A stretch of 42,846 nucleotides of DNA, from IMG/VR virus record IMGVR_UViG_3300031951_000379, positions 1 to 42,846 of that record, one strand, 5' to 3'. Made by a program: the position numbers and the translations under genes. Each line of letters starts with the position of its first letter. The first letter of the stretch is position 1. The notes beneath the pieces were generated by a model. It saw nothing but the letters and a program-made list of their open reading frames with translations. It was not told the origin of the DNA and made no database searches. This DNA is from a virus. This document shows, in pieces, positions 9,899 through 40,680 of the stretch.

Positions 9899-10143
9899 CG
9901 CTGCGCCTCCTTATGCCACGACACGCGGAACATCGCAACGAGCAGGTAGAGCATGACCGTGCTTCCGCCCGCCTTGAGCCCCAGCGCCCAGTTCCATCCG
10001 CCGCCGAAGCGACCAAAAAGGCGGGACTTCAACCGCCAATCGAAACTGAACTTCACGCGCCCGATCTTCCGCTCGATGCGGAGGTCTTGCTTCTCGCCAT
10101 AGAACGCCTTTACCTGCTGGTAGAACGAAGTTGTGTCGCTCAC
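9895..10143 (-). CDS. Small hypothetical protein with one hydrophobic segment
   Basis: 82 residues with a basic Trp- and Phe-rich middle (VKFSFDWRLKSRLFGRFGGGWNW) and one hydrophobic stretch near the end (STVMLYLLVAMFRVSW). It is coupled to the alanine-repeat gene by an ATGA overlap. Function unknown; membrane association is possible. Confidence 0.6.
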   Translation of the reverse strand: MSDTTSFYQQVKAFYGEKQDLRIERKIGRVKFSFDWRLKSRLFGRFGGGWNWALGLKAGGSTVMLYLLVAMFRVSWHKEAQR

Positions 10144-10673
10144 GGCTTCGCCTCCTTGAGCATCCGCTCCAGTTCAGCGCGCTGCGCGGCGCGCTCGGTG
10201 TCCCACATCGCAGCCCGCGCCACAGCCCACGCCGCAGCCGACGCCGCATCCCCCGCCACAGCCCACGCCGCATTCCGCGCCACAGCCCATGCCGCAGCCC
10301 ACGCCGCATTCCGCGCCACAGCCCATGCCGCAGCCCACGCCGCATCCCGCGTCGCATCCGCCGCATCCCGCGTCGCATCCGCCGCAGCCCATGCCGTCGC
10401 GTCCGCCAAAGCCCACGCCGTCGCGTCCGCCAAAGCCCACGCCGCAGCCGACGCCGCATCCCCCGCCGCATTCCGCGCCGCAACCAGTTCCGCGTCCGTC
10501 GCCTCTCCGCGCAGATGCCGCGCCGCGACATCGAGCGCGTTCGTGCTGCGCGGGTCGGTCATCAGGTGGCGCACCCGCTCGGCGCACCACAGCGCGAACT
10601 CGCGGCGCTGGCGGTCGGACAGGCGGTCGATCAGGGTGTCGATGTCTATTTTGTCGCCTTTTGCATCTGTCAT
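10140..10673 (-). CDS. Alanine-repeat protein, Imm-5-like N-terminus
   Basis: 177 residues from ATG 10673 behind GGAGCCACT. The N-terminal ~70 residues (RREFALWCAERVRHLM, then TNALDVAARHLRGEATD) match a family labelled 'putative immunity protein' (Imm-5-like). The rest is a long helix-forming repeat of Ala with Trp, Asp, Arg at spaced positions (NAAWAAAWAVARNAAW), ending in a basic coil. It has its own promoter with a palindrome in the spacer, unlike its neighbours, so it can be expressed separately. Function unknown; an anti-defence or superinfection role is only a hypothesis. Confidence 0.75.
   Translation of the reverse strand: MTDAKGDKIDIDTLIDRLSDRQRREFALWCAERVRHLMTDPRSTNALDVAARHLRGEATDAELVAARNAAGDAASAAAWALADATAWALADATAWAAADATRDAADATRDAAWAAAWAVARNAAWAAAWAVARNAAWAVAGDAASAAAWAVARAAMWDTERAAQRAELERMLKEAKP
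10267..10440. repeat. Tandem in-frame repeats inside the alanine-repeat gene
   Basis: Three neighbouring tandem pairs: a 36-base unit (10267-10302, 10303-10338), a 21-base unit (10339-10359, 10360-10380) and a 24-base unit (10393-10416, 10417-10440). All lengths are multiples of three, so copy number can change without breaking the frame. Related degenerate units extend on both sides (about 10197-10500). Confidence 0.9.
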
Positions 10674-13169: not shown

Positions 13170-14081
13170 TCAGACGATCTCATCGACGGACGAATCCGCC
13201 GGCGGTTCGGGGGTGCGAGACTTCTGGCTCTTGATCCAAGACTGGATGCGCGGCAACCACTCCTTCGGCCACGCAGTCATGTCCTCGCCGCCGTTCAGTT
13301 GTGCCTTCTTCATGGTGGCTTGCAGATCCTCGAGCGGGATGCTCTTGGCAGCGAGCGCCTTGATGATCCCCGCGGCGTCAGCCTTCGTCATCGTCTTCAC
13401 GGGCGACGGAGGCGGGGCGGGTGGAAGCACCGGGGTCGAGGCGTCCACCTGCGACTCGTCCTCCCGGTGATCCACCACGCCTTCTTCGGGAACGACGACG
13501 GGCTGCGAGAACGAGGGCGCAGATCCGGATTCCTGCGACCCTACCTCATCCTCGGTGTAGAGCCCACCCAACTCTGCGGGGAATGCCTTGCGGAGCGCCA
13601 ACGCCTCCGCGCACTTCGCGATCATCAGCGCTGGCATCTTCGCCCACATGTTGATGAGGCTTCCGTCCTTCTTGCGCTGCGCGTACTCGTTGAACGAAGC
13701 CACCGCCCAGATCGGAGCCACGAACCCCTTGCGGGACACGAACACCTTTGCGGCGCGCGGCGGGACGTGCGACATCCACACGTCCTTCCACACCCCGTCC
13801 TCGCCGCACCAGTACGGGCCGTCCTGACCCGCGTACTCGCCGCTGCGCTGCGCCACCAGCCGGAATCCGTCGATGGAAACCTGCGGCTGCATGACCTCGC
13901 GGCCAAGCTGCGAATCCCACCGCTTGACGGCGTAGATTTGACGGGCGAACGGGTCGAGCCCGGTGCGCTTGCAGATTTGCACGAACAGGGCCAGTTCGTC
14001 GGGAGTCGTTCCCTTGGCGATCGTGCGGCTGAGAAGCTGGATCTTGGGACCGTCCAGCATGACCGTTGCGAGATTGCTCAC
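13170..14081 (-). CDS. bet: Phage recombination protein Bet (RecT superfamily)
   Basis: 303 residues from GTG 14081, overlapping the exonuclease stop (GTGA). Conserved blocks: CKRTGLDPFARQIYAVKRWD, EVMQPQVSIDGFRLVAQRSG, YWCGEDGVWKDVW, WAKMPALMIAKCAEALALRK and AELGGLYTEDE. This single-strand annealing protein binds ssDNA made by the exonuclease and pairs complementary strands, giving homologous exchange and concatemers. After the ~195-residue core there is a proline-rich linker and a ~70-residue helical C-terminal module (TKADAAGIIKALAAKSIPL, then WPKEWLPRIQSWI), which may contact host ssDNA-binding protein. Confidence 0.93.
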   Translation of the reverse strand: MSNLATVMLDGPKIQLLSRTIAKGTTPDELALFVQICKRTGLDPFARQIYAVKRWDSQLGREVMQPQVSIDGFRLVAQRSGEYAGQDGPYWCGEDGVWKDVWMSHVPPRAAKVFVSRKGFVAPIWAVASFNEYAQRKKDGSLINMWAKMPALMIAKCAEALALRKAFPAELGGLYTEDEVGSQESGSAPSFSQPVVVPEEGVVDHREDESQVDASTPVLPPAPPPSPVKTMTKADAAGIIKALAAKSIPLEDLQATMKKAQLNGGEDMTAWPKEWLPRIQSWIKSQKSRTPEPPADSSVDEIV

Positions 14082-14890
14082 AGTCCGACCTCCTCTCCCT
14101 TGATGGACCACTTCGGAAGCGAGATGGTCTGAACGCCTTCGTCATACCCCGGCCAGTCGTTCGTCGTCATGCAGTTCGCAAGGATCGGCAGCGCCCGAGC
14201 GACGGCAATGCGGCCCTCCTCGATGGCCTGATCGTCAAGCGAGTAGCAGGCGACGCCGTAGGGTCCGGACTTCTCGATGGCGATGAAGATAACCGTCTCA
14301 ACGTCGAACCCAGCCGCGCGCATGGCGTCGATGTACCACGCCGCCTGGACGTGATACTTGAAGTTCGCGATGGATCTCGCGAAGGCGTCGGGAGACGCGT
14401 TCTCGCAGCTCTTGATGTCGATGATGGCGCGGTGCTCGAGGCTGTAGCCGTCGATCCGAGCCTTGCACCTGACTCCGATCTGCTCCCAAACGAGAGTCAG
14501 TTCGGTTTCCGTGAGGGTCGCGACGAGTTCGTGCGCCATGAGATGCCTCATGGCCGATTCTGCCATCCCGGACACGCAGAGCATCTGATCGTAGGTCAGG
14601 ATGACCTTGCCCGGATTGGCGTCAATGAACATCTGCCAAGCCGCCCTGCCGTCCTTCGTGCGCCTGTCCACGTCCGGAGCCGTGACGTACTGCTCCTTGA
14701 ATCGCAAAGGCTCGAGGATCGCGGCATGGACCGCCTCTCCCACCACAAGCGCGTCGGATGTCTTTCCGTTCTCGAGCGAGAACTTGACGTGGGCGGGAGA
14801 GCGAAGGATCTCCTTCAACTTGCTGGCATTTGCCGCCGTCATCGAGTGATACTCGACCGATGGCATTCCCCTGACGATCTTCATTGTCAT
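14078..14890 (-). CDS. PD-(D/E)XK exonuclease, RecE/exodeoxyribonuclease VIII type
   Basis: 270 residues; ATG 14890 lies behind GGAGCCAAGC. GEAVHAAILEP (51-61) with His55, CKARIDGYS with Asp147 and AIIDIKS with Asp158 and Lys160 are the nuclease core of the DUF3799-type RecE exonuclease, followed by the QAAWYIDA helix. It degrades one strand of dsDNA ends for Bet. Longer in-frame starts upstream run into the inverted-repeat leader and are not used here. The leader includes two interleaved inverted repeats and a short open frame that ends on the start codon. Confidence 0.9.
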   Translation of the reverse strand: MTMKIVRGMPSVEYHSMTAANASKLKEILRSPAHVKFSLENGKTSDALVVGEAVHAAILEPLRFKEQYVTAPDVDRRTKDGRAAWQMFIDANPGKVILTYDQMLCVSGMAESAMRHLMAHELVATLTETELTLVWEQIGVRCKARIDGYSLEHRAIIDIKSCENASPDAFARSIANFKYHVQAAWYIDAMRAAGFDVETVIFIAIEKSGPYGVACYSLDDQAIEEGRIAVARALPILANCMTTNDWPGYDEGVQTISLPKWSIKGEEVGL

Positions 14891-14982
14891 GCTTGGCTCC
14901 AAAGGCTCCCGACAGACGCGGCCAGACAGGAGCCACCTATGAACCGGCGCGTCTGTCGGGAGCTTGTTGTCCTTGTGGTCAT
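14887..14982 (-). CDS. Possible 31-residue leader peptide before the exonuclease
   Basis: An ATG inside the first arm of an inverted repeat opens a 31-codon frame whose TGA overlaps the exonuclease ATG (ATGA). The peptide is basic then hydrophobic (MTTRTTSSRQTRRFIGG, then ending in SLWSQA). No ribosome site is evident. The arrangement, peptide crossing a strong foldable RNA and ending on the next start, suggests translation-coupled control, but coding is unproven. Confidence 0.3.
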   Translation of the reverse strand: MTTRTTSSRQTRRFIGGSCLAASVGSLWSQA

Positions 14983-14989
14983 AGGTGGC
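14905..14989. promoter_or_regulatory. Two interleaved inverted repeats (pseudoknot topology)
   Basis: Repeat A: GCTCCCGACAGACGCG at 14905-14920 pairs perfectly with 14948-14963 (16 bases). Repeat B: GCCACCTATGA at 14932-14942 pairs perfectly with 14979-14989 (11 bases). The left arm of B lies in the loop of A and its right arm lies beyond A, so the order is A, B, A', B'. In minus-strand RNA this is an H-type pseudoknot or two mutually exclusive hairpins, ending 14 bases before the exonuclease ATG. The left B arm is part of a plus-strand GGAGCCACCTATGA sequence. Confidence 0.85.
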
Positions 14990-15055
14990 GCGCGAAGCGT
15001 AGCGGCGATCCGACAACAATGCAACAGGATCGAAAGAAAATTTGCGCTTTGCTCC
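14990..15055 (-). promoter_or_regulatory. Candidate control element before the exonuclease leader
   Basis: No gene. On the minus strand it contains CGCAAATTTTCTTTCGAT (15046-15029), which recurs at 40160-40177 and, in shorter form, at 289-301 and 42506-42518. A loose sigma70-like pair TTGCAT and TACGCT, 17 bases apart, follows. A promoter for the exonuclease-Bet unit would be expected here, since the upstream gene belongs to the virion block. Confidence 0.45.
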
Positions 15056-15349
15056 TCACCACTTGGATTCGGGACACTTCGCCGCTGGCATCGTCAGCTT
15101 CACCGTCAGCCGAGCGCGGGCATTCAGACCGCAGCCGCACTTCCGGCAGAACCCGATCTCGTCCGCTGGATTCGTGTCCTTCAGACGGTGTTCGCAGCCC
15201 ATGCACGCCGCCTTCCGCGCCTCGAACACGGCAGCATCCACCGGGCCTTGGATCGCGAGCGATGCCTCCGCCTTGACGTAACGGACCACGTTGCCGGGAG
15301 TGATCCGGGCGCGGGGAAGATTGTCATTGCTCGAGCGAAGGTAGGACAT
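15056..15349 (-). CDS. Small zinc-ribbon-like phage protein
   Basis: 97 residues. The sequence has CMGCEHR, CRKCGCGLNARARLTVKLT and CPESKW, the pattern 'CxxC...CxxCGC...K..CP..KW' of a small zinc-binding phage protein family (DUF6171-like) often next to virion genes. Role unknown. It follows the cysteine-rich protein with a three-base gap and is the last gene of the late block. Confidence 0.75.
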   Translation of the reverse strand: MSYLRSSNDNLPRARITPGNVVRYVKAEASLAIQGPVDAAVFEARKAACMGCEHRLKDTNPADEIGFCRKCGCGLNARARLTVKLTMPAAKCPESKW

Positions 15350-40007: not shown

Positions 40008-40680
40008 CCAAGCATGAAGCGCAGTCGAACAAAACTGCCGCACGAAGGGCATCTTCAACCCCGAGTCTCGTCCATCCATGCAACGGGAAGTTCCCGAACT
40101 GGATTTTTGCACATACGGGGGGTCAGAGAAACCGTCCCGGATTTCTGAACACCCCGAATCGCAAATTTTCTTTCGATACAAACGTGCAACAAGAGTTGCC
40201 GTTGGGTGGTTGCGGGAGGAGGAGGGTTTGTTGGGGGGGGGTGGGGGGCTTGATCGGTGTATCTACCCGTCGCCATTCGCGCGGATGGCGTATCGGATCG
40301 ACCGATCCACTACGCGGGATTGCTTCGCGCATCACGCTCGAGCGCAGGCCGGCAGCGCGTGCGCGGTCCTCTCGCTGTTCGCCCCCCTCTCTTCCCGTCC
40401 ATCGTTCCCGCGTTCCCGCCTGTCCGACTCGCGCGTCGGTTCTTCGCGTAGGATCGTAGGTGGGTTTCCAGTTCGCGCCATGTCCGGCGCGCGACTACCC
40501 CGAGCGCCTGGCATGGCGTCGGCTCGTCCCCTCTTTACGTCGCGGATTCGTTTGGAGTCTATCGGCTCGTTCGGAACGGCTGAAGACTCCCGGATAGCAA
40601 CTCGTTCGCGCTGTGTGCTACGGGAGTAGATGCTACGGATAGCCGGTTCCGGAAGTCAAGCGAGAATTTTTGCCGAGTCG
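39985..40680. other. Region without a convincing gene between late and right-end operons
   Basis: About 700 bases upstream of the late promoter. It holds CGCAAATTTTCTTTCGAT at 40160-40177, a short hairpin GCAAC-AAGA-GTTGC (40186-40199), a G-rich tract with runs of nine and six G around 40229-40251, and an imperfect inverted repeat (CTCCCG at 40587-40592 with CGGGAG at 40621-40626). Long open frames occur on both strands but have no protein-like character. It may contain the packaging site, an untranslated RNA or an origin; none can be shown. Confidence 0.6.

Follow-up and report, generated by a model that had tools for sequence, protein, structure and literature searches.

The stretch of phage DNA analysed here, referred to as the window, covers positions 1 to 42,846 (42,846 nucleotides) of the IMG/VR virus record IMGVR_UViG_3300031951_000379. 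Its minus strand carries an exonuclease gene (14078..14890) of the DUF3799, RecE/exonuclease VIII type (PHROG exonuclease VIII), the start codon of which (ATG, 14890-14888) matches the starts in relatives. It is directly followed by a gene for a RecT-family annealing protein (PF03837; 13170..14081, minus strand), which likely starts from a GTG at 14081 overlapping the exonuclease stop codon (GTGA), and this overlap suggests translational coupling. A sequence-only reading of this DNA had named the two an exonuclease-Bet pair; the RecE-type exonuclease stands, and the partner belongs to the RecT family, not to Bet. GGAGCC at 14900-14895 on the minus strand is taken from its spacing to the ATG as the Shine-Dalgarno (SD) sequence of the exonuclease gene. 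The gene upstream has its stop at 15056, and the leader is the minus strand between there and the exonuclease ATG. Elsewhere in the window, a coding stretch at 10140-10640 is rich in short repeats, which on the minus strand are Ala/Trp-rich (e.g. AAAWALADATAWA), and is open in several frames.

The leader contains two perfect inverted repeats (100% identity), one of 16 nt (14905-14920 / 14948-14963) and the other of 11 nt (14932-14942 / 14979-14989). They interlock just as the sequence-only reading described, its coordinates being exact, and their order on the minus strand, that of the exonuclease, is 5'-S1-S2-S1'-S2'-3'. S1 is made of GCCACCTATGA (14989-14979) and its perfect complement S1', TCATAGGTGGC (14942-14932), and S2 of GCTCCCGACAGACGCG (14963-14948) and its perfect complement S2', CGCGTCTGTCGGGAGC (14920-14905), giving the mRNA-sense layout GCCACCTATGA-15 nt-GCTCCCGACAGACGCG-5 nt-TCATAGGTGGC-11 nt-CGCGTCTGTCGGGAGC-CTTTGGAGCCAAGC-ATG. 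The structure ends, also as noticed before, beside the GGAGCC site, after which the exonuclease ATG comes. No other place in the window has perfect helices of at least 13 bp and at least 9 bp that cross, nor does any of 60 dinucleotide shuffles. Nested folding, which cannot show a pseudoknot, gives about -26 to -36 kcal/mol for S2 and -12 to -17 kcal/mol for the S1 stems of the leaders described below.

A search with the exonuclease alone returned one 98% identical contig, L004; its leader is identical to that of the window, as are 30% of equal stretches in that alignment, and is uninformative. Queries with the RecT protein and the helicase yielded six further phage contigs, and an exonuclease alignment added an eighth member, L241, a metagenome-assembled genome and the only further one among GTDB genomes. 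The S1-S2-S1'-S2' layout lies directly before the exonuclease gene in all eight leaders (the window, L014, L094, L098, L016, L017, L015 and L241), with the DUF3799/RecE exonucleases of the seven relatives being 49-60% identical to that of the window. The element spans about 75-115 nt with an S2 of 13-16 bp, and a pattern scan finds it once per phage record, except that L098 is missed because its spacing exceeds the pattern. The S2 sequences differ among the leaders, each with its own complement (GTCCCCGACCGAC, CGCCTCTGTCACCGC, CCCCCGTCCCGCGCG, TCCCCCTGCTGCC and others). The arms were aligned by hand, since MAFFT misaligned the window leader, and their register was set by complementarity. In this alignment the eight leaders share 13 S2 pairs, which are standard pairs in 104 of 104 cells; 12 of the 13 show changes in both partners. 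The covariation score reaches 0.682 versus 0.159 for shuffled data, and 0 of 500 shuffles reach any of the measures, the totals of this computation taking in six S1 core pairs as well. Pairing falls to 38-57% when the partner is slid by 1-3 columns, and S2 arms swapped between phages pair only at 61%. The compensatory arm changes that the sequence-only reading would look for in homologous leaders are thus there, and a conserved structure with such changes in diverged homologues, the mark of a structured cis-regulatory RNA, stands before the exonuclease gene in each of these phages. The same reading had offered a pseudoknot or a choice between two hairpins; a single pseudoknot fits, and the hairpin choice is less likely because both helices are kept in 8/8 leaders.

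The six S1 core pairs (GCCACC/GGTGGC) are identical in all eight leaders, and since the core never varies it gives no covariation signal of its own. Its extensions vary with their partners (TATGA/TCATA, AAG/CTT, ACA/TGT, C/G, TG/CA) and are mostly complementary, above chance (P about 7e-5, inner extensions). Unpaired letters are also conserved: a loop-1 motif, GGACAAC in the window (14966..14972, minus strand) with the consensus GNACAMC, sits 9-10 nt before S2 in seven of the eight leaders; TCC follows S1' invariably (14929..14931, minus strand, within GGTGGCTCC in all eight); and 2-3 T after S2' are conserved. Such letters, conserved beyond the needs of pairing (GNACAMC, GGTGGCTCC and TT after S2), together with a freely varying S2, resemble the conservation of an aptamer, and pseudoknot aptamers beside an SD sequence are common. 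The pseudoknot could then be a small-molecule riboswitch, in which a ligand, e.g. a nucleotide or cofactor signalling the state of infection, gates the exonuclease ribosome-binding site. This seems rather unlikely, however, as the element was found only before one gene type in one phage clade and has no Rfam match, whereas a riboswitch for a metabolite would usually recur before several metabolic genes. A possible third helix, T, between loop 1 and loop 3 reaches a Fisher P of 0.0026 over the eight leaders and has 6-7 bp (GAAC.../...GTTC) in L094, L098, L015 and L241; it consists mostly of conserved sequence with little independent covariation, and it is only a candidate because mismatched arms pair almost as well in those four leaders. 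Continued pairing of S2 across the loop motif, termed P2a, is not significant over the eight leaders (P 0.15).

The position of the element in its transcript can be predicted. A putative sigma-70-like promoter lies at 14996..15024 on the minus strand, with a -35 box TTGCAT (15024-15019), a 17-nt spacer and a -10 box TACGCT (15001-14996). Its match to the consensus is weak and the promoter scan did not detect it at its threshold, so that this weak assignment leans on agreement with the relatives, which hold TTGACA or TTGACT and -10-like hexamers at the same place with 17-nt spacing (16 nt fits better in L098). The -10 box ends 6-9 nt before GCCACC in 8/8 leaders, and transcripts are therefore expected to start at S1, in the window at about 14989-14991. 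The distance from the end of S2' to the exonuclease start codon is 13-21 nt in the eight leaders. The promoter, the start site and the abutment on the ribosome-binding site are thus suggested by position, and would place the element in the 5' untranslated region between the promoter and the ribosome-binding site of one gene. With S1 at the predicted 5' end in 8/8 leaders and the stems very stable, a constitutive element without any ligand has to be considered, either a structured 5' cap against 5'-end-dependent decay or a standby structure that fixes the level of translation; a purely structural role in protecting the mRNA 5' end would give a similar picture. We consider this unlikely, since a simple hairpin would be enough for protection, and the loop motif, the invariant TCC and the conserved crossing topology exceed what it needs.

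Just upstream of the -35 box lies an imperfect 20-bp palindrome, ATCGCAA-N6-TTGCGAT (ATCGAAAGAAAATTTGCGCT, 15029..15048), which resembles an operator for a phage repressor or activator. A second copy of ATCGCAA-N6-TTGCGAT is present in the window at 40158-40177, and the records of L015, L016 and L017 have three such sites each, one of them at the exonuclease promoter. Since the palindrome stands at the promoter and recurs elsewhere in these phages, transcriptional control probably acts too. The separate operator-like site also bears on whether the interlocking repeats could themselves work in DNA, as an operator or as DNA hairpins for replication or recombination. Long inverted repeats do adjoin recombination genes here, and the authors of the STAXI motif weighed single-stranded DNA structure for pseudoknots near DNA-handling genes (PMC2864571). 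Nevertheless, a role in DNA is very unlikely: an operator-like palindrome already exists upstream of the -35 box, the position of the repeats is locked to promoter and ribosome-binding site, and S2 has just two wobbles, both of them U-G when read in the sense strand, which would be A-C mismatches in the other.

A 31-codon open frame (14887..14982, minus strand) runs across the pseudoknot to a TGA that overlaps the exonuclease ATG, and this had made it a candidate leader peptide. The frame exists and stops as described, but a function is doubtful: none of the other seven leaders has a frame that matches it in start, length or phase, and if the transcript starts at S1, its ATG would lie only some 10 nt into the predicted transcript and would have no SD sequence. 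The frame is therefore probably incidental, and ribosome-coupled attenuation by the peptide, for which its extent across the pseudoknot and the overlap of its stop with the exonuclease ATG might speak, is most improbable for these same reasons. An intrinsic terminator or attenuator was rejected as well, since only 2-3 U follow S2 in all leaders; none was found in the window region.

Scans of IMG/VR with S1 and the loop motif, or with S1 and the promoter, gave at least 100 matches. Among the matches listed, S2 is 10-16 bp in the eight exonuclease leaders versus at most 8 bp in all others, and the full element occurs only before the DUF3799 exonuclease; several other matches are tRNA genes, the acceptor end of which shares the S1 letters. 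No such leader precedes exonucleases 30-41% identical to that of the window, the element was not found in GTDB genomes elsewhere in the order of L241, and a similarity search of phage-record DNA gave no match. A crossing repeat in L065 and L069 was rejected because it falls within a coding tail and has an S1 that is not conserved. Other phages have a roughly 50% identical helicase and an annealing protein with a related C-terminus, but encode YqaJ and ERF; in those of their loci that were inspected, the nuclease gene is not preceded by a leader of this kind. The element thus follows the DUF3799/RecT module and not the neighbouring genes. In sister phages (L102-L110, e.g. L103:2039-3698, L108:2187-3769 and L110:2106-3709) a YqaJ nuclease and an ERF annealing protein replace the DUF3799/RecT pair, and several of these annealing proteins keep a C-terminal domain resembling that of the window RecT (about residues 240-300), which suggests module exchange with retention of this domain.

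In Rfam 15, nothing scores above the gathering score for the window leader or its relatives; the best matches, all below their cut-offs, are microRNA models, which are explained by a long hairpin, and other models. In translational riboswitches such as SAM-II and preQ1-II and in ribosomal-protein operators (alpha operon/S4, S15), a pseudoknot gates the ribosome-binding site. These differ from the exonuclease leader in sequence, size and gene context, and no Rfam model fits. The acceptor end of tRNA-Thr (GCCACCT...AGGTGGC-TCCA) has the same letters as the S1 core plus TCC; tRNA mimicry was nevertheless judged a coincidence, as there is no D, anticodon or T arm and an A follows TCC in one leader only. 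An HDV-like ribozyme was rejected because it needs a P3 hairpin between P2 and P1', where the window, L016 and L017 have a loop 2 of only 2-6 nt, and also a cleavage site on the 5' side of P1, where the predicted transcript starts at S1 with nothing to cleave. By position and gene type, the closest studied case is gene 32 of T4, whose leader pseudoknot serves as the nucleation site for binding of gp32, and gp32 represses its own translation through it (PMC535899). Like the exonuclease leader, the T4/RB69 gene 32 operator is a phage pseudoknot upstream of the ribosome-binding site of a gene that encodes a DNA recombination/replication protein (PMC535899). On the other hand, it is about 28 nt long, in contrast to about 75-115 nt here, and a less structured tract of more than 40 nt, containing UUAAA repeats, comes after it, whereas S2 nearly reaches the SD sequence in the exonuclease leader and the 13-21 nt between S2' and ATG hold no UUAAA/UAAA tract of the gene 32 type in any of the eight; gene 32 also encodes a different protein family from exonuclease or RecT, and the resemblance is not one of shown homology. 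The STAXI motif is likewise a pseudoknot RNA near genes for DNA-handling proteins, but it is built of pseudoknots in tandem, two or three of them and often with UUCG loops, in contrast to the single one at the predicted transcript 5' end here (Weinberg et al. 2010; PMC2864571). The view of the sequence-only reading that the layout has no described example agrees with our searches of Rfam 15 and the open-access literature, in which no description of such an element was found within their partial coverage. Apparently, these leaders form a family of structured RNAs from uncultivated phages that has not been described before.

Our favoured reading, with a probability of roughly 0.65, is that the leader of the exonuclease-RecT mRNA forms an H-type RNA pseudoknot at its 5' terminus and that this fold controls how translation of the exonuclease is initiated. 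The transcript would start with the S1 5' arm or slightly upstream of it; S1 would close first as a long-loop hairpin of 7-11 bp, and S2 (13-16 bp) would then close through the S1 loop to lock the pseudoknot, the 3' strand of which would end a few nucleotides before the SD sequence. A bound factor may stabilise or destabilise this fold, by which the ribosome site would be blocked or opened, and RecT would follow the exonuclease via translational coupling. Nested folding gives low accessibility of the SD sequence in most leaders when S1 is unformed, because free S1-arm or loop bases pair with it; a further pairing, of the conserved GGTGGCTCC with the GGAGCC site (CTCC with GGAG), is possible in the window and L014. 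Competing pairings of an S1 arm with the SD sequence are thus possible in some leaders, and a switch between the pseudoknot and SD-sequestering folds is plausible. We infer that the pseudoknot regulates, and likewise the direction of its effect and its ligand. The best guess, by analogy to the autogenous control by gp32 of T4, is that the factor might be Exo or RecT itself, both of which are tied to the RNA by gene association alone, which is also expected from the common descent of a small phage clade; a different factor of phage or host, or a metabolite, might act instead. Somewhat speculatively, the element might be a new class of ligand-sensing pseudoknot, gated by a protein or a metabolite, that times the phage recombination nuclease, and the third helix in the longer leaders would give it a rare ABCABC topology.

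The element is tied to an exonuclease-annealing-protein pair, the module type from which recombineering tools are drawn. Little is known of how phages restrain a potentially harmful nuclease, and this leader is a compact, testable candidate for a control element; it would join gene 32 of T4 as a second case in which a phage recombination gene has a pseudoknot in its leader.
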